Assembly (NCBI RefSeq): GCF_000341735.1
Contig: NZ_KB455575.1
Location: forward strand, 1,515,422-1,579,421
Direction of reading: 5' to 3'
Length of the DNA stretch: 64,000 nucleotides
From: Methylotuvimicrobium buryatense 5G
Lineage (GTDB): Bacteria > Pseudomonadota > Gammaproteobacteria > Methylococcales > Methylomonadaceae
Positions 2,824-63,973 of this stretch are shown piece by piece. The first letter of the stretch is position 1. Each line of letters starts with the position of its first letter. A model generated the notes under the pieces. That model had not been told where the DNA came from and ran no database searches. It saw only the letters and a program-made list of their open reading frames with translations. The position numbers were made by a program, and so were the translations under genes.

Positions 2824-2983
2824 TTATACCCGTGTAGATCAAAATTCGCCGCCTGGGTGTCCGCTAGAGGACGCCGTGAATACGTCCATATAGTCTCTAT
2901 GCCAGCTCCATGCTGCCAAAGCCTTTGCGAACGCCCCGACGCCTCCATAAGCTAATGCCGAAATTTGAAGTGCGATAGGTATA
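2824..2983 (+). repeat. Dispersed structured repeat, family A copy A1
   Basis: Family A is a repeat of about 160 bp with imperfect terminal inverted repeats. One end reads TATACCTTTCGCACTTCAAA and the other, inverted, TATACCCATCGTAGATCAAA. Inside is a core near GGACGCCGTGAATACGTCC and a hairpin GCCAGC-TCCAT-GCTGGC. Strand here gives the direction in which the core reads. Ends are usually TA|TACC...GGTA|TA, compatible with a TA target site. In A1 the core reads ACGCCGTGAATACGTCC followed by ATATAGTCT. Confidence 0.85.
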
Positions 2984-3040
2984 AAATTACGGCAACCCCT
3001 AAACTATCGGCCTTGCTGGAGCCGAAAGGCTACATAACTA

Positions 3041-3205
3041 CAGCAATTCCCAGTTTGAGCAGTATCGCCGATTTTAGGGTGTGGGGTATGCCTGTCGAGG
3101 AACGCCGTAAACCCATCCATGGGGGCTTGGCGGCAGCTCCCTGCTGCCGACATCCTCGCCAAGCATACCCCACACCCTTTTTGATCTCCAAATTGGGAAT
3201 TGCTG
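3041..3205 (+). mobile_element. MITE-like element, family B copy B1, with 9-bp target duplication
   Basis: It is a 165-bp element with terminal inverted repeats CAGCAATTCCCA...TGGGAATTGCTG. An inner inverted pair AGGGTGTGGGGTATGC...GCATACCCCACACCCT surrounds a hairpin GGCGGCAG-CTCCC-TGCTGCC. It is flanked by the perfect 9-bp direct repeat ACATAACTA (3032-3040 and 3206-3214). It has no coding capacity for a transposase, so it must be mobilised in trans. Confidence 0.9.
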
Positions 3206-3369
3206 ACATAACTACTACAATTGCAGTTATGACTTGAATCCAATAAGTGATTTTAATGCGTTTGTTCCTGTTTGAACTTTAGCTGAACGGGACAATTCCA
3301 ACCAATGCCGTTTATAATTCATTCGACTTCTCGGATTTATCGCCGCTGACCGCTATTTTTTAAAAACCG

Positions 3370-4311
3370 ATGAAAACCATCCTCGTGACCGGCGCCACCG
3401 GACAAATCGGCTCGGAATTGACGCCAGCTCTCAGACAGCGATACGGCAATGATTCCGTTATTGCCGCCGGCCACCGCAAAAAAACCGATGCCGAGATATC
3501 GAACGCAGGCCCCTATTGCCGGCTGGACATTGAAGACGTCGCGGCGTTGGCCCGAATTGTCGAGGACTATCGCATCGATACGATCATTCACCTCGCTTCG
3601 TTATTGTCCGCAGTTGCCGAAACGGACCCGCAAAGAGCATGGTCGGTCAATATCGATGGCTTGTTCAATGTTTTGGAAATCGCACGCCAACACGCTTGCT
3701 CGGTATTTTTCCCCAGTTCGATAGGCGCCTTCGGCCCTAACACGCCGGCTTTCGATACGCCCCAGGATACGATTCAACGACCCAATACGCTGTACGGCAT
3801 CGGCAAGGTAACCGGCGAATTACTGTGCGATTATTATCACAAGCGCTATAACCTTGACACTCGGGGGCTTAGATTTCCGGGATTGATTTCCTATAAAACA
3901 CCGCCCGGCGGCGGCACGACCGATTACGCGATCGAAATATTCAACGCTGCCGCTCGATGGCAACACTACACATGCTATCTAAAACCCGATACGCAACTGG
4001 ATATGATGTACATGCCGGATGCGATCGATGCGTTTTTGCAGTTAATGACAGCCGATCCCAAACGCTTGATCCACCGCAATGCCTACAATGTGACCGCGAT
4101 GAGTTTCACTCCCGAGCAACTGGCCGCAGAAATTCGCCGGCATATCCCTAATTTCAAAATAAGTTATAAAATCGACCCGCTTAGACAAGCCATCGCCGAC
4201 TCTTGGCCGCGCCACATGGATGATAGCGCCGCCCGGCAAGAATGGGGTTGGCAAGCGCGATACGACCTAGCAACGATGGTCGAAGACATGCTAGAGCACA
4301 TAGCCGAATAA
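3370..4311 (+). CDS. tdh: L-threonine 3-dehydrogenase, SDR/epimerase type
   Basis: This is a 313-residue extended short-chain dehydrogenase with the NAD-binding motif GATGQIG at residues 8-14 and the catalytic YGIGK. It also carries the family blocks SYKTPPGGGTTDYAIEIF, MMYMPDAIDA and AMSFTPEQLA. These are typical of the epimerase-like threonine dehydrogenases that oxidise L-threonine to 2-amino-3-ketobutyrate, rather than sugar epimerases. The next gene on the same strand is a glycine C-acetyltransferase, which takes that unstable product to glycine and acetyl-CoA, so the pair makes a complete threonine degradation pathway. No strong Shine-Dalgarno precedes the ATG. The start is fixed by the Rossmann strand beginning at residue 3. 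Confidence 0.9.
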   Translation: MKTILVTGATGQIGSELTPALRQRYGNDSVIAAGHRKKTDAEISNAGPYCRLDIEDVAALARIVEDYRIDTIIHLASLLSAVAETDPQRAWSVNIDGLFNVLEIARQHACSVFFPSSIGAFGPNTPAFDTPQDTIQRPNTLYGIGKVTGELLCDYYHKRYNLDTRGLRFPGLISYKTPPGGGTTDYAIEIFNAAARWQHYTCYLKPDTQLDMMYMPDAIDAFLQLMTADPKRLIHRNAYNVTAMSFTPEQLAAEIRRHIPNFKISYKIDPLRQAIADSWPRHMDDSAARQEWGWQARYDLATMVEDMLEHIAE

Positions 4312-4342
4312 ACCGATAATGCCCTTTCAATAAACCAAACCC

Positions 4343-4440
4343 CTACTCACTACTCACTACTCACTACTCACTATTCACTATTCACTACTTACTGCTTACC
4401 GCTTACTGCTTACTGCTTACTGCTAACCGCTAACCGCTAA
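4343..4440 (+). repeat. Heptanucleotide tandem array, 14 units
   Basis: Fourteen consecutive 7-bp units are present: four CTACTCA, two CTATTCA, one CTACTTA, then CTGCTTA/CCGCTTA units and finally CTGCTAA/CCGCTAA. The drift from the first to the last type is graded, as expected from slipped-strand expansion followed by mutation. The array ends directly before the AAAGAGG ribosome-binding site of kbl and contains no gene. Confidence 0.95.
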
Positions 4441-4451
4441 AAGAGGTCATC

Positions 4452-5675
4452 ATGACACTTGCCAAACTCGACGCACAGTTAAGGGACCGACTCTCCGCGA
4501 TGCAAGACAAAGGTATCGCAAAAGGCAAGGAAAAAATCATCACCGGCTTCAAACCTGCCGAAAACGGCCTCGGCCCCAGGGTATTGCTTCAGAATTACCC
4601 GGATCGGACATTTTTGAGAATGAATGCCAATGCCTACCTGGGTCTATCGAGCCATCCCGCTGTCATTGCCGCCGAATCCAAAGCCGCCGAAACCTTCGGA
4701 GCGGGTCCCGGCGCGGTGAGGTTTATCAGCGGCACCTATCAACCTCATATCGATTTGGAAAACCGCCTGGCTGAATTTCACGATCGTCACTCGGCCATGC
4801 TATTCAGCGCGGCCTATGCGGCCATGATCGGCATCTTACCGGCGTTGATCGATGAAGACACGTTAGTCGTCAGCGATGCACTCAATCATAACTGCATTAT
4901 CAATGCGATTCGTTTGGCAAAAACGGCGCGAAAAGCCGTCTTTCCGCATCTGGACCTGAGCGAACTGGAACGCATACTGATCGATAACAAAGGCCAAGCG
5001 GAACGAGTCATCATCGTCACCGACGGCGTCTTCAGTATGCGCGGCGACCATGCGCCGCTGGATAAAATCGACGCGATACGCAGAAAACATGAAGCCGATT
5101 ACGCACAAGGAATTTTGACGGTCGTCGACGATTCGCACGGCATCGGCGCGCTCGGATCGTCCGGGCGCGGCACCGAGGAAATCACTGCAAGCCGAGCGGA
5201 CATTTTGATTGCGACACTCGGCAAAGCGCTCGGCGTCAACGGCGGATATGTGGTGTCCAGCCGGACCGTAATCGACTATTTAAGGGAAACATCGGCGAGT
5301 TATATTTATTCCAATCCGATTACCCCTCCGGAAGCGGGGGCAGCTTTGGCCGCATTGAATATACTGGACAGCGCCGAAGGCAAAGGCCTGCTGAACCATA
5401 TCCGAATGCTGGCCTTCAAACTCAGAAGCGGATTAACTCAATTGGGATTCGAAACCTTACCCGGCGAACATCCGATCGTGCCGATCATGATTAGGAATAC
5501 CGATAAAACCGGGGCCTTAGTGCAACATTGCTTCGAGCACGACATATTGGTTACCGGCTTGAATTACCCGATTGTCGCGAAAGGCGAACAAGAAATCCGG
5601 CTACAGATTTCAGCGGCTCACACTGAACAAGACATCGATTATTTTTTGGATGTTCTAAGCCAATTTAAACATTAA
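4452..5675 (+). CDS. kbl: Glycine C-acetyltransferase (2-amino-3-ketobutyrate CoA ligase) family, PLP enzyme
   Basis: This 407-residue member of the alpha-oxoamine synthase family has the PLP lysine in ATLGKALGVNGGY. It also has the cofactor aspartate/histidine in VVDDSHGIGALG, and GPGAVRFISGTYQPH near the N-terminus. The expected reaction is 2-amino-3-ketobutyrate + CoA to glycine + acetyl-CoA. Family relatives include BioF, serine palmitoyltransferase and HemA. The adjacent tdh favours the threonine route, though this protein is somewhat divergent at its N-terminus. The ATG at 4452 follows AGAGG by 5 bases. It is separated from tdh by 140 bases that hold the heptamer array. Confidence 0.85.
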   Translation: MTLAKLDAQLRDRLSAMQDKGIAKGKEKIITGFKPAENGLGPRVLLQNYPDRTFLRMNANAYLGLSSHPAVIAAESKAAETFGAGPGAVRFISGTYQPHIDLENRLAEFHDRHSAMLFSAAYAAMIGILPALIDEDTLVVSDALNHNCIINAIRLAKTARKAVFPHLDLSELERILIDNKGQAERVIIVTDGVFSMRGDHAPLDKIDAIRRKHEADYAQGILTVVDDSHGIGALGSSGRGTEEITASRADILIATLGKALGVNGGYVVSSRTVIDYLRETSASYIYSNPITPPEAGAALAALNILDSAEGKGLLNHIRMLAFKLRSGLTQLGFETLPGEHPIVPIMIRNTDKTGALVQHCFEHDILVTGLNYPIVAKGEQEIRLQISAAHTEQDIDYFLDVLSQFKH

Positions 5676-5891
5676 TCTAATAAAAGCATTTCACCATGAA
5701 GACCATGAAGAATAATAATTTAATTCAAAAACTTATTATTCATATGTAAATCATTTTTGCTCTCCTACTTCTTTTGGATTGACAAATCGTCTAAGAAAAA
5801 AAGGTATAGGATGTGTCTATCGAAGAAGTAATTTTTAACCAAAGGCTATGTAGGTACTTCCATGTACCCGGTCTGAACGTTTACGAGGTTT

Positions 5892-6257
5892 CTAATTTTT
5901 TTTCTCTTTTTTGATGATGACTTTATCGTCGATGACCAAGTCGGAAATACCACCGAGCTCTAAGCGCAAGGTGCAAGAAGCGTTTTTGAATGCATCGGTT
6001 TCACCTTGATAGTTATAAGTTACGTATGACTCCTTGTCGCTTTTCGTTTCGGATGGAAAAAACACCTGCTCGCCGGTTTCTTTCATAATTGCGGCAGGGC
6101 ATTTTTTAGATGCCATTTCCTGCATCGCGACATAAGTTCTAATCATTGCCGCCGACTCTTTTTCCTCGATGGATTCTTGTTTGCTGACACCCACGACAAT
6201 AAATCCGACGACAAAAACGCCGATAACCGCAATTACAATTTTAGTTGTTTCAGTCAT
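5892..6257 (-). CDS. Small single-pass membrane or exported protein, unknown function
   Basis: The protein has 121 residues: one hydrophobic segment (IVIAVIGVFVVGFIVVGV, residues 7-24), then a soluble region with two cysteines (KKCPAA and NASCTL) and a lysine-rich tail. It begins at an ATG preceded by AGAGGGTGCT, a good ribosome-binding site. No family is recognised. The membrane helix and a probable disulfide suggest a membrane-anchored periplasmic protein. The stretch between kbl and this gene (5676-5891) shows no further gene. Confidence 0.7.
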   Translation of the reverse strand: MTETTKIVIAVIGVFVVGFIVVGVSKQESIEEKESAAMIRTYVAMQEMASKKCPAAIMKETGEQVFFPSETKSDKESYVTYNYQGETDAFKNASCTLRLELGGISDLVIDDKVIIKKEKKN

Positions 6258-6378
6258 AGCACCCTCTAGGTTGTTTATTTTTATAAGTATGATACCGAAG
6301 ACATTTCAAAACATTCGGCAATACCCCATGAATTCTATGCCAATACGCTTATCTCGGCAATGCTTCGCTTAGAGCCGT

Positions 6379-6915
6379 TTAAAACTCAACTCCCTGCTCT
6401 GCCTTGATACCCTGGGTATACGCATGCTTAACCAGCGTCATATGGGTCACAGTATCGGCGACTTCAATGACCTCCGGCGCGGCATTGCGCCCGGTCAGCA
6501 CTAAATGCATCCAGGACGGCTTCTCATTTTTAATGAACTCGGCGATTTCTTGTCCGGTGATCCATTCATAACCGCAGCAATAGTTGATTTCATCGAGCAA
6601 TACGAAATCATAGGCTTCAGACTTAATTTTTTCCTTACTGAACTCCCAAATCGAGCGACTGGTTTTAATATCCTGCTCGGGATTTTTGGTATCCCAAGTA
6701 AAACCGTCGCCCAAAGCATGCCATTCGATATTGTCGAAACGTTCCGCGGCTTTGTGTTCGCCCGTTTGCCATTGACCTTTAATGTACTGAATCACGCAAA
6801 CCTTCATGCCCCAGCCGGCGGCGCGAAATACCATACCCAACGCGCTCGAAGATTTGCCCTTCCCTTCGCCGGTATTGACCAACACCAAGCCACGCCGCTT
6901 ATCTCTCGCTTTCAT
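6379..6915 (-). CDS. cobO: Cob(I)yrinic acid a,c-diamide adenosyltransferase
   Basis: This P-loop protein of the CobO/BtuR/CobA type transfers the adenosyl group of ATP to the cobalt of corrinoids, in coenzyme B12 synthesis or salvage. It shows RGLVLVNTGEGKGKSSSALG (P-loop at residues 16-23), VCVIQYIKGQW, and FVLLDEINYCCGY as the Walker B region. LVLTGRNAAPEVIEVADTVT lies near the C-terminus. I took the ATG at 6915 because GGAGATTGG lies directly upstream; an upstream in-frame codon at 6939 would add 8 residues and lacks such a site. It is a stand-alone gene with no other cobalamin genes nearby. Confidence 0.92.
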   Translation of the reverse strand: MKARDKRRGLVLVNTGEGKGKSSSALGMVFRAAGWGMKVCVIQYIKGQWQTGEHKAAERFDNIEWHALGDGFTWDTKNPEQDIKTSRSIWEFSKEKIKSEAYDFVLLDEINYCCGYEWITGQEIAEFIKNEKPSWMHLVLTGRNAAPEVIEVADTVTHMTLVKHAYTQGIKAEQGVEF

Positions 6916-7088
6916 CCAATCTCCTTTACAAGTTATCAAATGTCGAGCAGAGTAACACCTTCATTCGTGAACGCAAGTTTTACCGAGCCTTCAACATCGA
7001 CACTATGACTTCGCTTCATAAAGATCCTTTACCGTTTAAAATCGACACCATGTCAATCGAAATTTCAACTTACAGAATGTGTCAATCT

Positions 7089-7290
7089 TTTATCCTAGAA
7101 AGAGCAGTTGGCATATGTTGTAGACCGTTCATGCTGAGTAAAGTCGAAGCATGAAGGGTCTACAACACTTTCACCGACCTGGTGAATCCTCAAACTCCCG
7201 TTCACCCTTCGACAGGGCTCTCCTGAGCGAAGCAGAAGGGCTCAGGGCGAACGGGAGTTTGAGGCTCTCAACTGATCTTTTTAGGTTTAT
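7089..7290 (+). repeat. Dispersed inverted-repeat element, family E copy E1
   Basis: It contains REP-like arms (GTTGTAGACCGTTC / GGGTCTACAACAC and CAAACTCCCGTTC / GAACGGGAGTTTG). It ends in AACTGATCTTTTTAGGTTTAT, 4 bases before the hydrolase start codon. A longer copy in the opposite orientation lies at 56130-56357, and a short fragment at about 60590-60660. Confidence 0.8.
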
Positions 7291-7294
7291 AGCG

Positions 7295-8251: not shown

Positions 8252-8401
8252 AGCGCCTACTGTTGGTGCCCTAATACACGCCATCCATGGCGCTCGCAAA
8301 GGCTTTGACAGCAGGGATGCTGTCACAGAGCCTACATGGACGTATTCACGGCGTCCTTTGACGGACACTCCGGCGCCGAAATTTGACCTGCAAAGGGTAT
8401 A
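8107..8401 (-). repeat. Family A copy A2, long form with internal cassettes
   Basis: This copy has standard family A ends but is about 295 bp because extra modules lie between the left arm and the core: TTACATGGATGTAATGAATG, then GCAGAAAATGCAGGAGC, and ACGCCATCCATGGCG. It carries the stop codon of the hydrolase reading in from the left. Confidence 0.85.
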
Positions 8402-8448
8402 ACGCAACACCACGCGGATCGAAATAAATTTTTTATCGATAGGATTGC

Positions 8449-8961: not shown

Positions 8962-8965
8962 CTTC

Positions 8966-9078
8966 GACAAATGCAGAAAATGCAGGAGCAAAGGCTTTGC
9001 CAGCATAGAGCTGACATAGCGTATCTAAAGGGAAGTATTCAAGGCGTCCTTTGACGGACATCCCTGTGCCGAATTAAA
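8966..9078 (-). repeat. Family A copy A3, degenerate fragment
   Basis: It contains ATGCAGAAAATGCAGGAGC joined to AAAGGCTTTGCCAGCAT and the core complement GGCGTCCTTTGACGGACA. Both outer ends are missing. It starts 4 bases after the hydrogenase protease stop. Confidence 0.7.
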
Positions 9079-9157
9079 AAAGTAGTCCTCATTAAAGCAA
9101 ACCGTCTCCGACTACGCTCGAGAGTAAGAGACGGCCGGCTTTAACGCTTGAACGCGC

Positions 9158-9550: not shown

Positions 9551-9568
9551 CGCTATTCTCCTAAGTTA

Positions 9569-9730
9569 ATATACCTTTCGCACTTCAAATTTCTGCAGAG
9601 CCTAAGGAGGCATCGGGGTGCTCGGCAAAGGCTTTGCCAGCATGGATGCTGGCATAGAGCCTACATGGATGTATTCACGGCGTCCTTTGGCGGGCACCCC
9701 GGTGCCGAATTTTGATCTGCGATGAGTATA
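9569..9730 (-). repeat. Family A copy A4, inside the urt-fmd operon
   Basis: A complete copy fills the space between fmdA and fmdB. It stops at the base next to the fmdA stop codon and 18 bases before the fmdB start. Its strong hairpins could alter mRNA level between the two genes. Confidence 0.87.
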
Positions 9731-10960: not shown

Positions 10961-10995
10961 AGCCTTTCTCCTGACAAAGTTTTAATGATTAATAC

Positions 10996-11685: not shown

Positions 11686-11709
11686 TTTGTTTTCTCCTGA
11701 TTCGACCGA

Positions 11710-13717: not shown

Positions 13718-13730
13718 AGGAAACTCCCCC

Positions 13731-14657: not shown

Positions 14658-14698
14658 GACTCGATCCTCTTTGCTAACGGTCGGATTTTTTTAAATTG

Positions 14699-16350: not shown

Positions 16351-16515
16351 CAGCAATTCCCAATTTGGGGATCAAAAAGGGTGTGGGGTGTGCTTGGCGA
16401 GGATGTCGGCAGCGGGGAGCTGCCGCCAAGCCCCCATGGATGGGTTTACGGCGTTCCTCGACAGGCATACCCCACACCCTAAGATCGGCGAAAATGCCCA
16501 AACCGGGAACTGCTG
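16351..16515 (-). mobile_element. MITE-like family B copy B2, with 9-bp target duplication, in the urtA/permease-kinase intergenic region
   Basis: This full-length 165-bp copy is flanked by the perfect direct repeat GAGCTTTGT (16342-16350 and 16516-16524). Its right end abuts the kinase gene: the last base of the element plus the duplicated GAG forms GGAG, 9 bases before the ATG at 16528. Confidence 0.9.
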
Positions 16516-21914: not shown

Positions 21915-22275
21915 TAAGGAACGAGCATGAAATAACTTAGACAACTGTTGGAAGGGGGTTTGGTGGCTCGATTGACAGGTGTCGGCGGCAGGGATAGCCG
22001 CCGTCAAGCCTACACGGACGTATTCACGGCGTCCTGTCAAGCGAGTCACCAAACCGCAGCAATTCCCAGTTTGAGCAGTTTCGCCGATTTTAGGGTGCGG
22101 GGTATGCCTGTCGAGGAACGCCGTAGACCCATCCATGGGGGCTTGGCGGCAGCTCCCTGCTGCCGATATCCTCGCCAAGCATACCCCACACCCTTTTTGA
22201 TCTCCAAATTGGGAATTGCTGACCAAACCGCCACAAAGCCTACTACTTGTATAAGTTATTTTGTGCATATTCCTA
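21915..22275 (-). repeat. Family C copy C1, interrupted by element B3
   Basis: Family C has ends TAAGGAACGAGCATGAAATA and the complement of TAAGGAATATGCACAAAATA. Inside is the core complement GGACGTATTCACGGCGTCC with hairpin GGCGGC...GCCGCC and outer arms TTGACAGG / CCTGTCAA. C1 differs from the intact copy C2 (42772-42959) by the inserted B3 element. Confidence 0.88.
22057..22221 (+). mobile_element. MITE-like family B copy B3, inserted in a family C repeat
   Basis: The element is 165 bp. ACCAAACCG stands immediately before (22048-22056) and after (22222-22230) it. The uninterrupted family C copy at 42772 has a single related ACCGAATCG at the same site. This shows both the insertion and its 9-bp duplication. 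Confidence 0.92.
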
Positions 22276-23239: not shown

Positions 23240-23397
23240 ACTCATCGTAGATCAAAATTCGGCGCCGGGGTGTCCGTCAAAGGACGCCGTGAATACGTCC
23301 ATATAGGCTCTATGCCGGCTCCATGCTGGCAAAGCCTTTGTCGAGCCCCCGGAGCCTCCTTAGACGCTGCCGAAATTTGAAGTGCGAAAGGCATATT
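23240..23397 (+). repeat. Family A copy A5
   Basis: A near-complete copy between the YjiK-like and MaoC-like genes. The core reads GGACGCCGTGAATACGTCC followed by a GCCGGC-TCCAT-GCTGGC hairpin, where the stem keeps pairing through a G-T change. Confidence 0.85.
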
Positions 23398-29654: not shown

Positions 29655-29818
29655 TTATACCCTTTGCCAGTCAAATTTCGGCGTCGGGATGCCCGTCAAA
29701 GGACGCCGTGAATACGTCCATGTAGGCTCCATGACAGCATCCATGCTGCCAAAGCCTTTGACGAACACCCCGACGCCTCCATACGCTAATGCCGAAATTT
29801 GAAGTGCGATAGGTATAT
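29655..29818 (+). repeat. Family A copy A6
   Basis: A complete copy upstream of the second LuxR-type regulator. Its left end reads TATACCCTTTGCCAGTCAAA, an atypical version of the terminal repeat. It separates the kinase and regulator genes that overlap in the first system. Confidence 0.85.
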
Positions 29819-31678: not shown

Positions 31679-31815
31679 ATACCTTTCGCACTTCAAATTT
31701 CGGCAGTGCTTGAGGAGGCGCCAGGGTGTGCGGCAAAGGCTTTGACAGCAGGGACGTATTCACGGCGTCCTTTGACGGAGCCCCCTGGGCCGAAATTTGA
31801 CCAGCAAAGGGTATA
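31679..31815 (-). repeat. Family A copy A7, shortened
   Basis: Both ends are present, but the segment GCATGGATGCTGGCATAGAGCC between the arm and the core is missing, so the second hairpin is lost. It follows the terminator by 7 bases. Confidence 0.8.
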
Positions 31816-31970: not shown

Positions 31971-32135
31971 TTATACCCATCGTAGATCAAAATTCGGCAC
32001 CGGGGTGTCTCCGTCAAAGGACGCCGTGAATACGTCCCTGTAGGCTCTCTATACCGGCTCCATGCTGGCAAAGCCTTTGCCGGACACCCCCGCGCCTCTT
32101 TAGGCAATGTCGAAATTTCAAGTGCGAAAGGTATA
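31971..32135 (+). repeat. Family A copy A8
   Basis: A complete copy located about 140 bases upstream of pntA. The core is GGACGCCGTGAATACGTCC followed by CTGTAGGCT and a GCCGGC/GCTGGC hairpin. Confidence 0.85.
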
Positions 32136-35479: not shown

Positions 35480-35695
35480 CGAAGACGGCATGATTTTCCG
35501 CGCCTACTGTCGAGGCAACACATGATGTCCAATAGAATTATTTTGTCACTCCGGTTCATCTTCCTCTTCGTTTCAATCGCGATGATTTACGAAGTGGTGA
35601 GCACTCGATCGCATTTATTTTAAACCACTAGACTGCTGCTTGTTTGTTAGAATAATGCAATATAAATTGTAACTATTCAGCGCATGCGGTAGGTT

Positions 35696-35795
35696 GGTGT
35701 CAGGCATTGATTTCTAAGGACGCGTGAATACATCCCTGTAAGCTCTGACTGCAACGTCCTGTTGCAGACAGCCTTATAAATCAATGCCTGACACC
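35696..35795 (+). repeat. Family I element: 18-bp inverted repeats around the shared core
   Basis: Perfect inverted repeats GGTGTCAGGCATTGATTT (35696-35713 and complement 35778-35795) enclose a variant of the shared core (AAGGACGCGTGAATACATCC). A hairpin CTGCAAC-GTCCT-GTTGCAG follows it. It is a single copy in this window and shows the core in a context unrelated to family A ends. Confidence 0.75.
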
Positions 35796-42418: not shown

Positions 42419-42581
42419 TATACCTTTCGCACTTGAAATTTCGGTAGCGCCGGAGGGGAGGCATCGGGTCGTCTCGGCAAAGGCTTTGCCGGAATGTAGC
42501 TGGCATAGAGCTTACATTGACGTATTTACGGCGTCCTTTGACGGGCACCCCGAGGCCGAATTTTCATCTACGATGGGCTTA
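42419..42581 (-). repeat. Family A copy A9
   Basis: A complete but diverged copy 47 bases after the hybrid kinase stop. Its core complement reads GACGTATTTACGGCGTCC, one change from consensus. Confidence 0.82.
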
Positions 42582-42771: not shown

Positions 42772-42959
42772 TAAGGAACGAGCATGAAATAACTTCGACA
42801 ACTTCTGGGAGGGGGATCGGTGGCTCGATTGACAGCTGTCGGCGGCAGGGAAAGCCGCCGTCAAGCCTACATGGAAGTATTCACAGCGTCCTGTCAAGCG
42901 AGTCACCGAATCGCCGCAAAGCCTACTACTTGTAGCAGTTATTTTGTGCATATTCCTTA
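42772..42959 (-). repeat. Family C copy C2, uninterrupted
   Basis: This 188-bp element ends in TAAGGAACGAGCATGAAATA and the complement of TAAGGAATATGCACAAAATA. It is the reference for reading C1 (21915-22275). The hairpin stem is GGCGGC...GCCGCC with arms TTGACAG/CTGTCAA. The remaining space 42582-42771 and 42960-43003 shows no gene. Confidence 0.85.
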
Positions 42960-44319: not shown

Positions 44320-44479
44320 ATATACCTTTCGCGCTTTAAACTTCGGGAGTGCCTGAGGAGGTCCCGGGTGCTCGGCAAAGGCTTTGCCAGCGTGGAGCTG
44401 GCATAGAGCTTACATGAACGTATTAACGGCGTCCTTTGACGGGCATCCCGGGGCCTAATTTTGATCTACGATGGATATA
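44320..44479 (-). repeat. Family A copy A10
   Basis: A complete copy between the two GH57 genes. The core complement is AACGTATTAACGGCGTCC, more diverged than most copies. Confidence 0.82.
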
Positions 44480-44638: not shown

Positions 44639-44739
44639 CTATACCTTTCGCACTTCAAATTTCGGCAATGCCAGAGGAGGCGCCTGGGCGTCCTTTGGCG
44701 GACACCCAGGCGCCGAATTTTGATCTACGACGGGTATAT
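44639..44739 (-). repeat. Family A copy A11, core deleted
   Basis: Only 101 bp. Both terminal repeats and the arms GCGCCTGGG/CCCAGGCGCC are intact, but the sequence between GGGTGCTCGGCAAAGG and GGCGTCCTTTGG is gone. It is flanked by perfect-looking TA ends. Confidence 0.85.
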
Positions 44740-49300: not shown

Positions 49301-49614
49301 TTATACCTTTCGCACTTCAAATTTCGGCAGTGCCTAAGTAGGCACCGTGGTGTTCGGTCGATTTTTGCTCCTCGGCAATTGCTGAGTTACATGGATGTAA
49401 TGAATGCAGAAAATGCAGGAGCATTTTTCTGTCCTGCATTGCCCTAATACACGCCATCCGTGGCGTAATGCAAAATCGACATTCACGCCATCCATGGCGC
49501 TCGCAAAGGCTTTGCCAGCATGGATGCTGGCATAGAGCCTACAGGGACGTATTCACGGCGTCCTTTGACGGACACCCCGCCCCGGCGCCGAATTTTGATC
49601 TATGATGGGTATAA
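49301..49614 (-). repeat. Family A copy A12, long form upstream of haoA
   Basis: A 314-bp copy with standard ends carries the cassettes ACATGGATGTAATGAATG and GCAGAAAATGCAGGAGC, and two ACGCCATCC...GGCG hairpins. It lies 50 bases upstream of haoA, so the haoA promoter is either inside or just beyond it. The space 49615-49798 holds no gene. Confidence 0.87.
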
Positions 49615-52332: not shown

Positions 52333-52387
52333 GTTGAATATTTTCGCGATTTTTGTGTATTTGGTGGACAAGATGTTTGAATAATAA

Positions 52388-53911: not shown

Positions 53912-53936
53912 GCGTAATTACCTGAAATATTGGTTA

Positions 53937-54243
53937 TTATACCCATTGTAGATCAAAATTCGGCACCGGGGTGCTCGTCAAAGGACGCCGTGAATACGGT
54001 CCATGTAGGCTCTATGCCAGCTCCAGCAGGCAAAGCCTTTGCGAGCGCCATGGATGGCGTGAATGTCGATTTTGCATTACGCCACGGATGGCGTGTATTA
54101 GGGCAATGCAGGGCAGAAAAATGCTCCTGCATTTTCTGCATTCATTACATCCATGTAACTCAGCAATTGCCGAGGAGCAAAAATCGACCGAACACCCCGG
54201 CGCCTCCTTAGGCACTGCCGAAATTTGAATTGTGAAAGATATA
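53937..54243 (+). repeat. Family A copy A13, long form upstream of fumA
   Basis: This long copy is inverted relative to A12 and carries the same cassettes: GCGCCATGGATGGCGTGAAT, ACGCCACGGATGGCG and GCAGAAAAATGCTCC. One arm carries an extra G in the core (GAATACGGTCC). The 54244-54329 spacer shows nothing further. Confidence 0.86.
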
Positions 54244-54329
54244 GTTTGGACGCAGCTTTCTTTGTTGCCGCATTTAATATTTTCGAAACGTTTTTAGATT
54301 AATGTACACTTATTGCTTGCCATCAACTG

Positions 54330-56102: not shown

Positions 56103-56129
56103 ACTCATACCTTAGATAATAAAAATGAC

Positions 56130-56357
56130 ATAAACCTAAAAAGAGCAGTTGAGAGTCTCAAACTACCGTTCGCCCTGAGCCCTTCGGCTACGCTCAGGAG
56201 AGCCCCTTCGACTACGCTCAGGAGAGTCCTGTCGAAGGGTAAAGGGTAGCTTGAGGCTTCACAAAGCTGGTGAAAGTGTTGTAGCCCCTTCATGCTTCGA
56301 CAGGGCTCAGCACGAACGGTCTACAACACTTGCCAACTGCTCTTTTTTAGGATAAAG
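56130..56357 (-). repeat. Family E copy E2
   Basis: It is the reverse-oriented longer version of E1, with a partly duplicated GCTACGCTCAGGAGAG arm. As with E1, its TTTTTAGGTTTAT end faces a lipoprotein start codon, here 28 bases away. Confidence 0.82.
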
Positions 56358-56381
56358 GATCACTTTGTGTATTCGACTAGT

Positions 56382-57518: not shown

Positions 57519-57688
57519 AAGAAAACAAATATTTTAATGGGCGGTTCTGTGGCATCATTGATGAAGAAATGGGCAAGCCATAATCGGCGCGATATTATAG
57601 CCTAGAATTAAACCGTATCTTTAGTCTTGCTTTTTTTGCATTTCAAGGCTAAATTCGCGCGGCTTTTCATTTACTTGAGTAATATTAC

Positions 57689-58339: not shown

Positions 58340-58453
58340 CTCCGAAGCCAATTTTTCCGAAAAATAGACCATTGGCACCTGATTGACTGACAAAAGTCGA
58401 AAAGATTAGGGGATAATACCGATATTTGACCGGTTCTAGCAAGAAAGCGAAAC

Positions 58454-58978
58454 ATGCAGCGGAGCACGCCTTTATACGATAGCATCTTGAAATTATTGCG
58501 CCATGCGCCATGGCGCGATAGACGGCACCTGTATACCGTGGCTTGGATGGTTTTGGGTTTATTGTCCAGTGGTTGGATCAGTCTAAGTAAGCGGTCGCCT
58601 TATGTCGTGAGTCGTGCGGAACTGGCGCAAAGCGTCGAGAGACGTTTCAAGCGTTGGCTGACGAATGGGCGTATCGATGTGTTGCGTTTGTATGCGGCGT
58701 TATTGCGGGAGGCTCTGAAGGACGTGGCGGAAGAGCCGTTGCTGGTCGCCTTAGATATACCTTTCGCACTTCAAATTTCGGCGCAGGGGTGTCCGTCAAA
58801 GGACACCGTGAATACGTCCATGTAGGCTCTGAGACAGCATCCCTGCTGTCAAAGCCTCTGCCGAACACCCCGGTGCCTCCATACGTCAATGCCGAAATTT
58901 GAAGTGCGATGAGTATATATGTTGTGGCTACTACGGGAAATCCGGAAGAGCCCATAAAGTTAGCCATTTTTTGAGTAT
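58454..58978 (+). pseudogene. Transposase remnant (IS4-like N-terminus), interrupted by a family A repeat
   Basis: From the ATG at 58454 about 101 codons read as the N-terminal part of a DDE transposase (LLRHAPWRDRRHLYTVAWMV, SRAELAQSVERRFKRWL, PLLVALD). The frame is broken right at VALD, the usual position of the first catalytic aspartate, by repeat A14. After the repeat, ATGTTGTGG could continue it as MLW before a stop. The terminal string from 58953 recurs at 31291, so the right end of the same element is probably present there too. It cannot encode an active enzyme. Confidence 0.75.
58756..58917 (+). repeat. Family A copy A14, inside a transposase remnant, with two like ends
   Basis: Unlike other copies, both termini are of the CACTTCAAATTTCGG type. 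The left end TACCTTTCGCACTTCAAA is followed at once by the body in the orientation that normally has the GATCAAAATTCGG end. The copy is a hybrid or has an inverted end. Confidence 0.85.
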
Positions 58979-58999
58979 AAAGGGACTATGTCAACGTCT

Positions 59000-59842
59000 T
59001 CATAATCGCCCTAACAATTCGGCTTTTTTGGCATTGTATTCATCGTCAGTCAATATGCCTTTATTTTTCAAATCAGTGAGCTTTTCGATAGTCACAAAAA
59101 TGTCCTCTTCATGGCCTGATGCCGGCTTATTGCGTGCAGTCGACTGCTGCTGGTCAGATGTAGACTTGGCTTCCCGTGGTACGTTGTCGACCGAAATCAC
59201 AGGCAAACTGTTTACGTCGACCAAACCGTATTGGCTGGAAAAAGACAAAGATCCTCCTACCGACTGTTGCTGAGAAAACCCACTAATTTGGTGATCCAGC
59301 GTGTCGTAAAGCGTTACATGCCCATTGGCTTCAATCGCTAATCGGTGAATAGTCGCAAAATAGGCATAACGTACATTGTTTTGTGCCCCTGTACTGGTAG
59401 GAAATTGTAAACCGACAGGCCACCAGTTTGCGGACTGAGTATTTGAAGGCGGGACGAATAAGCTAACCGGCCCCGATGGCCCATTGCTATTTTGCTGCTG
59501 TTGGCCTCCAGAATAATTGCTTTGCTGCTGAGATCCTTGTGATTGCGACTGGAAAGACCGCGTTTGAAGCAAATTCGACTGGCTCGCGACTAAATCGGAT
59601 AATTCTTGACACAATCCAGCGATGGAATTTTTGAGTTGATTATTAAACATGTCGCCCACCATAATCATTCCGCCACGCATCCATTGCCCCGAGCCGCCGA
59701 ATTCAGGATGATTGAATTGAGCCATCGATCCGTTGCCATTGATCACAGATTGCAAAAGACTGAACACCGCATCAAAGCTGAAATGATAACGCTGAGCGAG
59801 TTGATTGATAATGGAAGAGCCTTCCGGCGTAAGCTGATTCAT
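59000..59842 (-). CDS. SHOCT-domain protein with Gln/Ser-rich middle
   Basis: The 280 residues run from the ATG at 59842. The N-terminal part (about 1-75) is helical and glycine-containing (HPEFGGSGQWMRGGMIMVGDMF). A low-complexity Gln/Ser/Gly stretch (about 85-125) and a globular middle (WWPVGLQFPTSTGAQNNVRY) follow. The C-terminal SHOCT motif reads IEKLTDLKNKGILTDDEYNA followed by KKAELL. SHOCT domains are found at the ends of many membrane-associated or oligomeric proteins; no enzymatic function is known. It lies between repeats and is not in an operon. Confidence 0.8.
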   Translation of the reverse strand: MNQLTPEGSSIINQLAQRYHFSFDAVFSLLQSVINGNGSMAQFNHPEFGGSGQWMRGGMIMVGDMFNNQLKNSIAGLCQELSDLVASQSNLLQTRSFQSQSQGSQQQSNYSGGQQQQNSNGPSGPVSLFVPPSNTQSANWWPVGLQFPTSTGAQNNVRYAYFATIHRLAIEANGHVTLYDTLDHQISGFSQQQSVGGSLSFSSQYGLVDVNSLPVISVDNVPREAKSTSDQQQSTARNKPASGHEEDIFVTIEKLTDLKNKGILTDDEYNAKKAELLGRL

Positions 59843-59887
59843 TGAATTTTCCGCCAAAGTACAAAATTGAGAGCGTTTACTTCTTAC

Positions 59888-60097
59888 TATACTCATCGCA
59901 GATCAAAATTCGGCGCCGGGAAGCCCGTCAAAGGACGCCGTGAATACGTCCATGTAGGCTCTATGCCAGCTCCATGTTGGCAAAGCCTTTGCGAGCGCCA
60001 TGGATGGCGTGAATGTCGATTTTGCAGGAGCAAAAATCGACCTAGCACCCCGGAGCCTCCTTAGTCACCTGCCGAATTTTGAAGTACGAAAGGTATA
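59888..60097 (+). repeat. Family A copy A15, with one extra cassette
   Basis: This copy has the cassette GCGCCATGGATGGCGTGAAT with a following GATTTTGCAGGAGCAAAAATC hairpin inserted after CAAAGCCTTTGCGA. The same cassette occurs in the unrelated element B4. Confidence 0.86.
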
Positions 60098-60125
60098 TTT
60101 CCGATAATTTACCCGGCCCATAAGA

Positions 60126-60360
60126 TAACCTGATTAGCAAGTTTCTTCAGCTAAAGCCCAAAAACCAGCATATCCCTAGCAGGACGGGGTTTGCAACCCC
60201 GTCCTAAACGTTTTGACTTTGGCCGAAGTTAGCCGAAATGTTTAGGGCAAACCGAAACGTTGGGGACGGGTTAAATAACCCGTCCCGCAGAAGTGGCTAC
60301 GACTGGCCACTGCTCGGACAATTGGCTTCAGCAAGCTGAAGCATCTTGCTAATCAGGTTA
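60126..60360. repeat. Family G repeat, complete copy G2 with terminal inverted repeats
   Basis: The left end TAACCTGATTAGCAAG...CTTCAGC is mirrored at the right as GCTGAAG...CTTGCTAATCAGGTTA. The inner part holds the two GGACGGGG-type palindromes. This copy defines the element ends. Between 60361 and 60732 I see only a family E fragment and no gene. Confidence 0.85.
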
Positions 60361-60732
60361 AGTTAAACCTAAATGTCGGCATCCAATCCATATGAATGCC
60401 TTCAAACCAAAGTCATCGTTAGCTCTAAGTTCCTGTAGTCCATTCTAGAATAATGTTTTCTGTTAACTTAAAGACAGTGAGATAGGATTTAATCAATGGA
60501 AAGATTGAAACGATTTCCTTGCTTTGTCAATAACTTTCTAATCGAAGAATGGGCGGGATTTAGAATACTCATTCAATGGGTAGCGCGTGGAATCCGCTCA
60601 TGCTTCGACAGGCCCAGCACGAACGGATTTCAGGAGGTTAACTGATTTTTTTAGGTTCATATCAACAGAGCGCCAAATGGAATAGTAATCGTACTCCCTT
60701 TTGATTGAAAAATCGTCCAAGCGTCCAGACCC

Positions 60733-60996
60733 CAGCAATTCCCAGTTTGAGCAGTTTCGCCGATTTTAGGGTGTGGGGTATGTCTGTCGAGGAACGTCGT
60801 AAACCCATCCATCGGGGCTTGGCGGCAGCTCGAACGCCAAGGATGGCGTGAATGCCGATTTTGCATGGAGCAAAAACCTGCGAACGCCAAGGATGGCGTG
60901 AATGCAGATTTTGCAGGAGCAAAAATCTGCCCTGCTGCCGACACCCTCGCCAAGCATACCCCACACCCTTTTTGATCTCCAAATTGGGAATTGCTG
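60733..60996 (+). mobile_element. MITE-like family B copy B4, expanded by a tandem cassette
   Basis: The family B ends are intact, but two tandem 50-bp units (60831-60880 and 60881-60930, each starting CGAACGCCAAGGATGGCGTG) sit in the loop of the GGCGGCAG...CTGCCG hairpin. Flanks TCCAGACCC and ACCAGGCCC match at 7 of 9 positions, suggesting an aged target duplication. Confidence 0.87.
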
Positions 60997-61033
60997 ACCA
61001 GGCCCGCCGTGCTTGCAATACTAATTTTTGTCA

Positions 61034-61208
61034 TTACAATCGAACCCCAGTCTGTTTAGCTATCTGGTAGATCGGTAAATCGACTGACGTACCGGCTCTG
61101 TGCAAAGCGATATCGATTTTTTGATAGCCGATTTTTTCGTGGAGCTCGCGTAAAAATTGTAATTTGTCCGTTATCAGTTCCTCGGCATTTTGTGTTAGTG
61201 TTTCGATA
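61034..61208 (-). pseudogene. 3' remnant of an unidentified gene, truncated by repeat A16
   Basis: About 57 codons read IETLTQNAEELITDKLQFLRE, then LHEKIGYQKIDIALHRAG and end IYQIAKQTGVRL. The composition is protein-like, with amphipathic helices, and differs from the repeat-derived frames around it. The frame opens only through repeat A16, so the start of the gene appears to have been removed. No family is recognised. Confidence 0.45.
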
Positions 61209-61366
61209 TATACCCATCGTAGATCAAAATTCGGCACCGGGGTGTCCGCCAAAGGATGCCGTGAATACGTCCATGTAGGCTCTATGCCAGCTCCATGCTG
61301 GCAAAGCCTTTGTCAGACACCCCGGCGCCTCGGACACTGCCGGAATTTGAAGTACGAAAGATATAG
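61209..61366 (+). repeat. Family A copy A16
   Basis: A complete copy 26 bases upstream of the ketosynthase start. The core has GGATGCCGTGAATACGTCC, one change. It cuts the remnant at 61034-61208. Confidence 0.85.
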
Positions 61367-61392
61367 CCAATAAACATTGTAAGGAATTAAAT

Positions 61393-62457
61393 TTGAACCC
61401 CATCCGTTATATCAATAATATATTCACCCTGGAAACAGGCATTTTTAATTCAAACAACGACCTGCTTGGTTATTACGAAGAAGCTGTAGACAAGCTGGAC
61501 ATGGATGTAGAGGAAAAGGAAAAACTGCACAAGGCGGTTAAATATTTTCTCGTTGGGCAACGCACCCGCCGCGTTGTAGATGGTTGGCTGGACTTTAAAA
61601 ACTTTGACGAAAAAGCCGCCGGTTTCGAACGGGGAATCGATGAGTCTATTGCCGGTCTTTCCTTACAGCTTTCTGAAGCGTTTGCCGATAAAAATATTTC
61701 GTTTGATGCTGTGTTCACCATCAGCGCTACCGGTACTATTATGCCAGGGATCAGTTATCGTTTAGCTCGTCATTTGCCGGATTTGATTCGCCCCAACAGT
61801 TTGATTATAGACTTAGGCCATGTCGGCTGTACCGGTGGAGTAAAAGCCTTGAATCTGGCTAAATCTTTAAGTTCAGACTTTAAAAATATTTTAGTGGTCA
61901 GCATCGAAGTGCCTTGTACGTTGGCTAATTTACAATCCAAAAAGGTAGATGTTTGGCAGGGTAATTGCACTTTTGGCGACGGCGCGGCTGCGTTGTGGAT
62001 TTCCTCTGATGCAGAACAAGGCGACATGGCGCTGGAGCTGGAGCAGATTCACTACACCCAAAAAGCCCAACAAGGACTGGATTTAATCCATTGGGGTTAT
62101 GACGGTTATTACAGCTTTGAACTGGCTGATGAAACGACTTTTAACCGAGATGTGCAAGCGTTTGTTCTGGAAGTGTTAAAAGAAACCGAACAGACCTGGC
62201 GCAGCAATAACCAATGGGCGATTCATCCAGCCGGTATTCTGCTGTTGTTAAAACTCAGCAAAAAACTGGGCTTGCCGCGTGGTACTATTGCCCCTTCTGT
62301 CGCACATTATGAAAAGTTTTCCAATATGAGCAGCGCCAGCATTATGTATATTCTCAAAGAGATTGCCAAAGCAGAAAGTCAGAATCAGGCTATCAATCTG
62401 CTGACAATGGGCGCGGGTTTTAACGTAATTTATGGTTGTGTAAGAAAGGTACGCTAA
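61393..62457 (+). CDS. Ketosynthase III / type III polyketide synthase-like condensing enzyme
   Basis: The 354-residue thiolase-fold enzyme has a predicted Cys nucleophile in LGHVGCTGGVKAL, His in WAIHPAGILLLL, and Asn in FSNMSSASIMYIL. This Cys-His-Asn set is shared by KAS III and chalcone synthase-type enzymes. It would condense an acyl starter with malonyl groups; the adjacent ACP gene favours an ACP-dependent KAS III role. The start is a TTG supported by AAGGA 7 bases upstream. AT-rich codon use here and in the next gene differs from the surrounding genes, suggesting horizontal transfer. Confidence 0.82.
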   Translation: MNPIRYINNIFTLETGIFNSNNDLLGYYEEAVDKLDMDVEEKEKLHKAVKYFLVGQRTRRVVDGWLDFKNFDEKAAGFERGIDESIAGLSLQLSEAFADKNISFDAVFTISATGTIMPGISYRLARHLPDLIRPNSLIIDLGHVGCTGGVKALNLAKSLSSDFKNILVVSIEVPCTLANLQSKKVDVWQGNCTFGDGAAALWISSDAEQGDMALELEQIHYTQKAQQGLDLIHWGYDGYYSFELADETTFNRDVQAFVLEVLKETEQTWRSNNQWAIHPAGILLLLKLSKKLGLPRGTIAPSVAHYEKFSNMSSASIMYILKEIAKAESQNQAINLLTMGAGFNVIYGCVRKVR

Positions 62458-62739
62458 ATGAATAAAACAGAGATTTTACAATTTATGCAAGATTATATTG
62501 TCAACAATACTACACATAAAGATATTGCCGACATTGCTGACTATCGTATGTCAGAGCTGTTGACCAGCAGTCTTGATATTGTTTATTTTGCGGTAGACCT
62601 GGAAGAGGTTTTAGGGTTTGAGGAAGACACGCTCAATATTGAAGAATGGGTGGATAAATTTGAAAAAATCACTTTTGACAAGTTAGCTGAGCAGCTTGAA
62701 CAAATGGTTGTTGATATTAAAGGTGCAAATCAGGCTTAA
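62458..62739 (+). CDS. Acyl carrier protein
   Basis: The 93 residues include the phosphopantetheine serine in LLTSSLDIVYFAVDLEEVLG, a variant of the usual DSLD motif (SSLD). Acidic helices follow, as in ACPs. Its ATG directly follows the ketosynthase stop, so the two are cotranscribed. The N-terminal MNKTEILQFMQDYI is mirrored in the truncated copy at 62761. Dedicated ACPs of this kind carry intermediates for a specialised acyl or polyketide product rather than general fatty acid synthesis. Confidence 0.85.
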   Translation: MNKTEILQFMQDYIVNNTTHKDIADIADYRMSELLTSSLDIVYFAVDLEEVLGFEEDTLNIEEWVDKFEKITFDKLAEQLEQMVVDIKGANQA

Positions 62740-62760
62740 AACATTTTTTGATAGCGGATT

Positions 62761-62937
62761 ATGAACAGTTCGGATATTTTAAACTTCATGCAAAGTTATA
62801 TTGCCAGAAATACACCGTATAAAGAAATTGCAGAAATTAGCGCTTATCAAATAAAAGAATTGCTGATCAACAGTCTTGACACAGTTGATTTTGCAATGGA
62901 TTTGCATCGCTTTTTCTTGGCGGGGCGAGTTATTTAA
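62761..62937 (+). pseudogene. Second acyl carrier protein, truncated by repeat G4
   Basis: The frame gives 58 residues, MNSSDILNFMQSYIARNTPY to FAMDLHRFFLAGRVI. It aligns with the preceding ACP through the phosphopantetheine serine (INSLDTVDF) and then runs into repeat G4 at about 62919. The last residues (LAGRVI) and the stop come from the repeat. The second half of the carrier fold (helix III onward) is missing, so function is doubtful. Confidence 0.8.
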
Positions 62938-63009
62938 TCCGCCCCGAACGTTTTGGTTTGGCTTGGCCACGTTCGAAACGTTCAGGACGGGGTTACAAAC
63001 CCCGCCCTG
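62919..63009 (-). repeat. Family G repeat, copy G4 (inner part)
   Basis: GGCGGGGCGAGTTA-TT-TAATCCGCCCC and AGGACGGGGT...ACCCCGCCCT palindromes are separated by the AACGTTTTGGTTTGG spacer. It lies across the 3' end of the second ACP gene. Confidence 0.8.
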
Positions 63010-63037
63010 TTCAGCAGAACAAAAACAGACTTAATTA

Positions 63038-63177
63038 ATATACCTTTCGCACTTCAAATTTCGGCAGTCCATAAGGAGGCGCCGGGGTGCTCGGCAAAGG
63101 CTTTGCCTTCATGGGATCTATTCACGGCGTCCTTTGACGGACACCCTGGTGCCGAATTTTGATCTGCGATGGGCATA
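63038..63177 (-). repeat. Family A copy A17, shortened
   Basis: The second hairpin is reduced: GCTTTGCCTTCATGGGATC replaces the usual GCCAGCAT...GCTGGC. It ends 19 bases before the hydrolase start. Confidence 0.82.
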
Positions 63178-63196
63178 TAAAGGGAGACAATTAAAA

Positions 63197-63781
63197 ATGA
63201 AGGTCATACTAGTTCACGGTATATTTGATACCGGCCGTGTTTTTAAACATATGACCTCTAAGCTTGAAGCAAGCGGGCATGAATGCCACGCACCTAATTT
63301 AAAACCGTCCAACGCCGAATTAGGCATCACTGATTTATCGATAAAGCTAAAAAATTATATCGATCAACAAATTAGCGTAGACCAACCTATTGCTATTATC
63401 GGTTTTAGCATGGGGTGTATGGTTTCTCGTTATTATCTGCAAATCCTCGAAGGACACGAGAGAACCAAGGCTTTTTTTGCTATATCCGGCCCACATTACG
63501 GAACGATGACAGCTTATTTTTACCCAAGCAAAGGGGCAAAAGATATGAGGCCAAATAGCCGCTTTCTCGCTGATTTAGCAATTACTGAAAATAGACTCGA
63601 AAATATTCAGCTCTATTCGTATAGAACACCTTTCGATGCCATGATTGTTCCGTCAAAAAGCTCTGATTGGAAAATTGCTAACAACAAACGGGCTAATGCG
63701 ATTGTGCATAGCCTCATGGTTAGGGACAGGTCGGTGATTTCGGACATTGTTAAAAATCTTCGGCGGCTAGAAGCACGTTAG
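63197..63781 (+). CDS. Alpha/beta hydrolase, triacylglycerol lipase-like
   Basis: The 194 residues open with the oxyanion strand VILVHGIFDTGRVF and have the nucleophile elbow IIGFSMGCMVSRYYL. AFFAISGPHYGT and KDMRPNSRFLADL are typical of bacterial lipase/esterase proteins, and DAMIVPSKSS and VHSLMVRD are candidate acid and histidine regions. It could release or modify the acyl product of the ketosynthase/ACP genes just upstream, which is inference from position. The ATG at 63197 has AGGGAG ahead. In-frame codons from 63134 lie in repeat A17. Confidence 0.85.
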   Translation: MKVILVHGIFDTGRVFKHMTSKLEASGHECHAPNLKPSNAELGITDLSIKLKNYIDQQISVDQPIAIIGFSMGCMVSRYYLQILEGHERTKAFFAISGPHYGTMTAYFYPSKGAKDMRPNSRFLADLAITENRLENIQLYSYRTPFDAMIVPSKSSDWKIANNKRANAIVHSLMVRDRSVISDIVKNLRRLEAR

Positions 63782-63807
63782 CCAAGCAGGGCGAATTAGT
63801 GTTCATG

Positions 63808-63973
63808 CATACCTTTCGGACTTCAAATTTCGGCAGTGTCTGAGGAGGCACTAGGGTGTGCTGCCCCTCACCTAACGCTAGGCGAGAGGGGCCAGCATAA
63901 AGCCTACAGAGACGTATTCACGGCGTCCTTCGACGGACACCCTGGTACCGAATTTTGATCTACGATGGGTATA
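63808..63973 (-). repeat. Family A copy A18, with a substituted hairpin
   Basis: The usual GCCAGCAT...GCTGGC hairpin is replaced by CCCCTCACCTAACGCTAGGC and GAGAGGGG, itself able to pair (CCCCTC...GAGGGG). The core complement GACGTATTCACGGCGTCC is intact. Confidence 0.83.

Follow-up and report, generated by a model that had tools for sequence, protein, structure and literature searches.

The question raised by this stretch of the Methylotuvimicrobium buryatense 5G genome (contig NZ_KB455575.1, positions 1,515,422 to 1,579,421; these 64,000 nucleotides as a whole are called the window) is what is meant by a core shared by many repeats with unrelated ends. The sequence-only reading had described families A, B, C and I with the same internal plan, and had suggested selection on a folded single strand. 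Based on the analysis reported here, it is the strand opposite to the one read there that folds, into a three-way junction in which a long outer helix encloses two hairpins, each with an ANGGA(N) loop. The likeliest reading of these conserved loops, judged from sequence and given about even odds (probability around 0.5), is that they are candidate recognition sites of CsrA/RsmA.

The repeats and their shared core are real. The core string, GGACGCCGTGAATACGTCC, has 19 matches in the window at up to three mismatches, against a mean of 0.02 in 100 shuffles, and its 18-base form occurs 546 times in the host genome at up to two mismatches (264 forward and 282 reverse), the reversed control giving 0. 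Also, a covariance model of the core plus arms (R1, 100 positions) was built from 44 sequences, all of them taken from genomes other than that of the host. In the window it detects 23 copies with E<0.01, a number that rises to 25 when E<=1 is allowed, and in 800 kb of the remaining host genome it detects 127. From their ends and stems, these 25 copies correspond to 17 of family A, 4 of family B (one with E 0.051), 2 of family C, 1 of family I and 1 doubtful copy; with the family A remnant at 44640-44738 added, this agrees with the 18, 4, 2 and 1 copies or fragments counted before. No Rfam family reached its gathering score anywhere in the window.

In the folded strand, the outer helix that encloses both hairpins is ~23 bp long and varies freely in sequence while its pairing is kept; the first hairpin carries an ANGGA(N) loop and the second has the form GCC-NNC-ANGGAN-GNN-UUYAC-GGC. 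The structure was assessed in an alignment of 91 elements (A1), comprising 88 of 140 non-redundant sequences from other genomes and three elements from the window. Pairing is observed in 90.9% of the cells versus 57.8% after shuffling, and the covariation score is 0.823, compared with 0.213 for shuffled and at most 0.184 for slid controls. Moreover, RNAalifold predicts the same helices when these are not supplied. Changes on both sides occur in 34 of the 38 pairs, but the columns are so variable that this count is no better than in shuffles (mean 33.1, with 128 of 500 reaching 34), and the evidence comes from the other measures. The search pattern had fixed the four pairs without such changes, namely the GCC/GGC clamp and the C-G pair that closes the second loop.

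The two inner stem pairs of the second hairpin were free in the search and are also informative. After deduplication of the three sequence sets (131 to 116 for the host genome, 128 to 126 for named genomes and 48 to 48 for relatives), they are Watson-Crick in 229/232, 249/252 and 92/96 cases, respectively, the types including TA/TA, CC/GG, TC/GA, AT/AT, GA/TC and GC/GC. The Yersinia proxima genome of L134 has 17 copies of the core pattern, of which, counted by eye, 13 have CCC/GGG, two TAC/GTA, one ATC/GAT and one a G-U pair on the GGA strand. The hairpin stems do differ among families and still pair, and the TCCAT and TCCCT loops described before are ATGGA and AGGGA on the other strand. In contrast, the TGTAGGCT-like string taken to be conserved and unpaired is paired in its first bases, which form the 3' arm of the second hairpin (TAC-GTCCAT-GTA) and covary with their partners (CCC/GGG, TCC/GGA, ATC/GAT). 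A lack of covariation in a large alignment had been named beforehand as able to refute selection on a folded strand; in the 91 sequences covariation proved strong, far above the shuffled and slid controls, and the proposal was not refuted.

Which strand folds can be read from the mismatches of the outer helix. With this helix aligned by Watson-Crick matches only, the ratio of G-U to A-C on the GGA strand is 111:64 in 83 host copies, 185:52 in 111 copies from named genomes and 90:27 in 40 copies from relatives. In A1 it is 142:56, with 54 sequences having more G-U than A-C and 8 having fewer. This excess indicates that the GGA strand is the folded one, as RNA or as single-stranded DNA, although a strand-biased mutation process is a possible alternative source. 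A preference with respect to replication was also considered and left unused as weak: in a binned sample of the host genome, with the terminus at ~1.1 Mb and the origin at ~3.4 Mb by GC skew, the GGA strand lies on the same side relative to the fork in 107 of 180 cores of A/C type.

The loops are conserved where the searches left them free to vary. For the second loop, CANGGANG is present in 131/148 host-genome copies in which eight bases of the loop region were free. The first hairpin was fixed by no search, and when only pairing is used to locate its stem, the loop contains GGA in 104/105 copies from named genomes, 40/42 from relatives and 68/97 from the host, compared with 8-10% in a letter-shuffle control. 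The two GGA motifs are separated by 20 nt in 70/90 copies, with a range of 19 to 22, the commonest second hairpin being UACANGGANGUA. Also, when the hairpins in 1.66 Mb of the host genome are limited to those with stems of 7 bp or longer, AGGA (31), GGGA (20) and CGGA (12 of 181) are the top four-nucleotide loops and ATGGA (41/246) the top five-nucleotide loop, much of which is contributed by the elements themselves.

These observations bear on the view that the core has no function, its pairing being kept by template-switch correction of quasi-palindromes and its sharing being due to recombination between selfish miniature inverted-repeat transposable elements (MITEs). The long, nearly perfect arms of the elements would agree with such a process, as would the patchy distribution with large expansions in some genomes. 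However, correction should be strand-symmetric, yet G-U exceeds A-C (185:52 in the named genomes); the loops, which correction does not protect, are conserved where the searches left them free; and very different genera share the core despite unrelated arms. For these reasons we consider this explanation very improbable.

A second module, of about 49 bp and sometimes in tandem, sits inside elements of families A, B and C, in B within a hairpin loop; besides the window copies, one lies at L053 ~1830-1980, minus strand. Its sequence is unlike that of the core and, in the copies read, it combines two hairpins, one with an ANGGAN loop and one with an AGGA or ATGGA loop; the first of these has 82 matches in the same 1.66 Mb. 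Some of these modules hold further sequence nested in their own AGGA loop.

According to the review PMC7652899, as excerpted, the CsrA consensus obtained by systematic evolution of ligands by exponential enrichment (SELEX) is RUACARGGAUGU, which mostly forms a loop of six bases with AC/GU closing it. RsmE recognizes an ANGGAN hexaloop with variable N, and a dimer can bridge two sites separated by 10-63 nt, best when the distance exceeds 18. The core has the structural features of a CsrA/RsmA-binding RNA, at least two ANGGA loops on stems at a bridgeable spacing. We regard CsrA/RsmA as the likeliest meaning of the loops because UACANGGANGUA closely fits the consensus, the spacing fits and the second module also pairs two GGA loops. 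One csrA gene was found in the host. A transcript of the GGA strand would then offer two hexaloop sites at bridgeable spacing to one CsrA dimer, and each copy would be a portable candidate CsrA-binding module, acting as a sponge or as a site in cis depending on what transcribes it. More tentatively, CsrA binding could protect the RNA of the element or let the element tap Csr control, and either effect would favor retention in unrelated mobile elements. Among the papers listed in literature searches, compared by title, none joins CsrA with dispersed repeats or MITEs.

The elements that carry the core are mobile. In filled and empty sites compared with the sister genomes G010, G037 and G060, their presence differs in both directions. 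A family A copy (L040 12354-12513) has a TA target duplication, and at 53938-54244 of the window both G060 and G037 lack the family A copy. A family B copy (L007 17138-17403) is flanked by two copies of TTATTGTT, a duplication of ~8 bp that comes from one case with one diverged flank (85% identity). In G010, core-bearing insertions with other ends are found, the corresponding sites being empty at 57597 and 52375 of the window. Short, non-coding, with terminal inverted repeats, target duplication and insertion polymorphism, the elements are MITEs, and in the host genome the core is found in MITE families with unrelated ends. The TA duplication of A versus the ~8 bp of B, one case, speaks against one transposase for all families, and a shared transposase was rejected for A and B on the target duplications, with the diverged flank of the B case in mind. 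The single mobilizing system proposed before is therefore not supported, and, given also the unrelated ends, the core resembles a cargo that several transposition systems have in common. It may itself have a role in mobility.

For family A, 85 of 132 paired ends lie 140-179 bp apart. Eight pairs more than 1 kb apart are present in 1.66 Mb (a third of the genome), all of them spanning cores, and the ten open reading frames (ORFs) inside them comprise host-type genes, two ORFs with no family assigned and an rve integrase (L040 13390-14460), which lies downstream of a complete copy of family A. In this third of the genome, searched with A ends, an autonomous parent of the family was not recognized. 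The remnant at 44640-44738 is a nearly core-less MITE.

The sequence-only reading knew of no described family with this core. However, the core is already described, being carried by two Yersinia entities, YPAL/RU-2 and Ysr224. YPAL/RU-2 is the Yersinia palindromic sequence, for which PMC2759123 and PMC2229807 cite De Gregorio 2006, and the 168-nt RU-2 printed in PMC2759123 holds the exact core pattern at position 92, with both GGA hairpins. In the YPAL/RU-2 section of PMC2229807, it is a small intergenic element of 168 bp, multi-copy and mobile; filled and empty sites attest to this recent mobility, the duplications measure 3-26 bp, and the targets lie at dyad symmetries or close to them. As described there, YPAL has internal inverted repeats and no TA ends, in contrast to families A and B of the window, which have terminal inverted repeats and duplications of TA (A) and ~8 bp (B, one case). 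Because ends and duplications differ, the window families are YPAL-related and not YPAL proper.

The second entity, the Yersinia small RNA (sRNA) Ysr224 (Rfam RF02770), matches the Y. proxima copy of L134 with 94.0 bits, above the gathering score of 70, whereas the window copies fall below it; weak matches at E<1 are found in 9/19 loci from other genomes. Partial accounts describe a response of Ysr224 to temperature and, for Y. ruckeri, multiple copies that differ in expression. The descriptions compared, being excerpts, nowhere tie YPAL or Ysr224 to each other or to CsrA, and an earlier link may exist. What would be new is the class-wide superfamily, the folded strand, the two-loop architecture and the presence inside unrelated MITEs, the superfamily being much wider than the published descriptions of YPAL as excerpted. 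The same Y. proxima contig has a weak match to the Vibrio RNA AS5 (L134 7209-7330; 39.2 bits, gathering score 96).

Several observations weigh against CsrA/RsmA as the meaning of the loops. Very stable stems may be unfavorable, according to the SELEX summary in PMC7652899. Template-switch correction of palindromes could lift pairing without selection, and the invariance of the clamp, the bulge and the second loop in A1 is no independent evidence, because the search pattern fixed the clamp and bulge and, outside the host genome, the second loop. In a draw of genomes from the class, csrA was found in 313/369, being present in 27/30 of those with the element and 286/339 of the others; the gene is nearly ubiquitous, so this co-occurrence is uninformative. 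Moreover, three genomes carry the element and have no csrA match (G256, G443 and G589), G443 being 98% complete with four copies. The Rfam model of Ysr224 lies on the strand of the sequence-only reading and not on the GGA strand. Second modules lie within 220 bp of a core in 71 cases; in 56 of these their GGA loops are on the opposite strand to those of the core and in 15 on the same strand, and in family B the second module interrupts the first GGA loop. Finally, where the two genes beside a gap point the same way, the folded strand is sense in 86 cases (45, 5, 29 and 7 in the four sets) and antisense in 97 (52, 4, 25 and 16), which gives no sign of selection for co-transcription. Core placement roughly tracks the share of each kind of intergenic gap, and a cruder gene finder shows no strand bias either, placing more copies in ORFs. 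A cis-element read in the sense of the neighboring genes was dropped for lack of this bias.

The main rival is that the core is a mobility signal, one strand folding as single-stranded DNA, or as an RNA intermediate, whose junction and loops are read by an enzyme encoded elsewhere, CsrA being irrelevant. Hairpins of repetitive extragenic palindromic (REP) elements and integron attC sites are comparable folded recognition signals. The opposite-strand second modules, the carriers with no csrA match and the strand of Ysr224 also fit such a signal, and it would accommodate an outer helix kept as structure and not as sequence, the folding of only one strand, the absence of bias toward neighboring transcription and the second modules inside the hairpin loop of family B copies. 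The YPAL/RU-2 duplications of 3-26 bp, with targets at or beside dyad symmetry according to PMC2229807, would also agree. Nonetheless, families A and B have ordinary transposon ends and duplications (TA and ~8 bp), no candidate enzyme was found, DUF3800 being the only one searched for, and the close fit of a pair of ANGGA(N) loops, 20 nt apart, to a known RNA-binding protein would be left to chance. We hold a mobility signal to be rather unlikely.

The placement of the copies also bears on the proposal of a robust RNA hairpin, by which cotranscribed copies would stabilize or destabilize the upstream mRNA, or weakly terminate, with no specific protein involved. In the host genome, 204/220 copies lie outside ORFs of at least 130 amino acids and 16 inside, which agrees with such a hairpin, and YPAL might influence the stability of the upstream transcript, as stated in a passage of PMC2229807. 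Copies inside such ORFs, some of which are probably spurious as ORFs, number 28/152 in named genomes, 12/37 in the multi-copy set and 10/49 in relatives. However, there is no sense-strand bias, and neither the GGA in loops that are free to vary nor the constant spacing is explained, which makes this proposal improbable.

Turning back to CsrA/RsmA binding as the favored meaning, other known RNAs resemble the core to different degrees. TwoAYGGAY RNA (RF01731), a CsrA-sequestering RNA predicted from motif matches according to excerpts of PMC4333381, has an outer stem and two hairpins with NGGA loops and lists Gammaproteobacteria among its hosts; however, its gathering score of 43 is above the 22.4 bits reached by the family B copy, and the host genome gives no match at E<=1, although the control genomes were silent too. 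The sRNAs CsrB, RsmY and RsmZ, as outlined in partial sources, have multiple hairpins with ANGGA loops, but the core elements have two sites each and occur as hundreds of dispersed mobile copies. RsmU, an RsmA-binding sRNA of Xanthomonas, is reported in an excerpted source to be confined to that genus. DUF3800-IV RNA (RF02963) has a similar three-way layout and 17 sub-threshold matches in the host genome, the best with 34.3 bits, whereas its gathering score is 60.7 (best in the window, 33.7 bits) and its consensus lacks GGA loops. Membership was rejected on these scores and because G037, rich in copies, has no DUF3800 match. Also rejected was a REP-like reading of GTAGGCT, whose bases are a covarying stem arm; REP/RAYT palindromes of 20-40 bp with a GTAG/CGTC tag (PMC3733652, in part) differ from the core of 100 positions.

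With the stems left free, the pattern is found in 21/151 genomes drawn from the family, 36/201 from the order, 30/369 from the class and 16/398 from the phylum, draws that overlap and are not additive. In the phylum draw, no match lies outside the class, the gammaproteobacteria, and in the class draw the core structure is present in 27/272 genera. The spread is patchy, with large expansions in some genomes, as in G037 with 188 exact pattern matches. Hosts among the matches listed are Stenotrophomonas, Xanthomonas, Marinobacter, Microbulbifer, Rheinheimera, Idiomarina, Yersinia, Vibrio and Methylomonas; the scan of named genomes, which is no census, gave at least 118 stretches, and three stretches with the pattern are in viral contigs. 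Separately, 33 plasmid records have stretches 60-80% identical to the Yersinia copy, as similarity matches, with no annotated feature among the 20 listed. An enterobacterial example is NZ_CP067312.1 71599-71714, with ~72% identity.

A wider proposal, possible and in our judgment doubtful, is that selfish elements throughout the class carry ready-made CsrA dimer-binding RNA, hundreds of copies of which would titrate or rewire Csr/Rsm, YPAL and Ysr224 being the Yersinia branch. If so, every new insertion would add a CsrA site to the transcript that it joins, and unrelated transposons would have repeatedly taken up the module since CsrA binding helps persistence. Under one covarying structure, the core brings together YPAL/RU-2 as a Yersinia MITE, Ysr224 as an Rfam sRNA and the very abundant MITEs of the host, and it gives a precise and cheap test of whether mobile elements spread sites for a global RNA regulator. 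Also, Ysr224 counts in sRNA surveys are suggested to reflect a mobile repeat.

Table 1. Core copies, remnants and second modules in the window (positions are those of the window; scores are from model R1)
Feature	Positions	Strand	Evidence
Doubtful core copy	2620-2678		E 0.13
Core copy, family A (element ~2822-2985)	2839-2936	-	48.3 bits, E 5e-12
Core copy, family B (element ~3036-3220)	3070-3168	-	85.5 bits
Core copy, family A, with nested second module	8289-8385	+	68.1 bits; fold
Core fragment, family A	8989-9053	+	20.2 bits, E 0.001
Core copy, family A	9616-9715	+	89.7 bits
Core copy, family B	16388-16486	+	81.8 bits
Core copy, family C (element ~21915-22062)	21964-22064	+	88.5 bits
Core copy, family B	22086-22184	-	77.4 bits
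Core copy, family A	23252-23350	-	64.4 bits
Core copy, family A	29671-29770	-	85.6 bits
Core copy with internal deletion, family A	31724-31800	+	17.3 bits, E 0.0071
Core copy, family A	31989-32089	-	62.2 bits
Core copy, lone member of a further family (I)	35688-35787	-	62.1 bits
Core copy, family A	42468-42566	+	44.9 bits
Core copy, family C	42821-42921	+	75.2 bits
Core copy, family A	44366-44464	+	67 bits
Family A remnant, 99 bp, both ends and outer helix kept, core mostly deleted	44640-44738		Paired A ends without core
Core copy, family A, with nested modules	49495-49593	+	70.8 bits; fold
Core copy, family A (whole element ~53938-54244)	53954-54049	-	50.8 bits; site empty in G060 and G037
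Core copy, family A	58771-58870	-	77.8 bits
Core copy, family A, second module adjoining	59904-59999	-	59.5 bits
Second module: CGCC-ATGGAT-GGCG hairpin, TGAATG, GC-AGGA-GC hairpin	59990-60041	+	Repeat family D13
Family B copy, first hairpin loop holding two tandem second modules	60762-60842	-	14.4 bits, E 0.051; sequence, fold
Two tandem second modules within the family B copy	60829-60930	+	Repeat family D13
Core copy, family A	61224-61322	-	77.9 bits
Core copy with internal deletion, family A	63085-63162	+	21.2 bits
Partial core copy, family A	63886-63931	+	21.6 bits

Two other kinds of insertion were observed along with these elements. A different element of ~216 bp, with CCTAAAAAGAGCAGTTG-like ends, occupies 56135-56352 of the window, and its site is empty in loci of G037, G078 and G093. 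Also, G010 (C2, L270 18508-18658 and L274 18825-18974) has two core-free insertions of ~150 bp that share ATTCAGTCCCCCGGCAATTATCGTTC-like ends, the sites in the host genome being empty.

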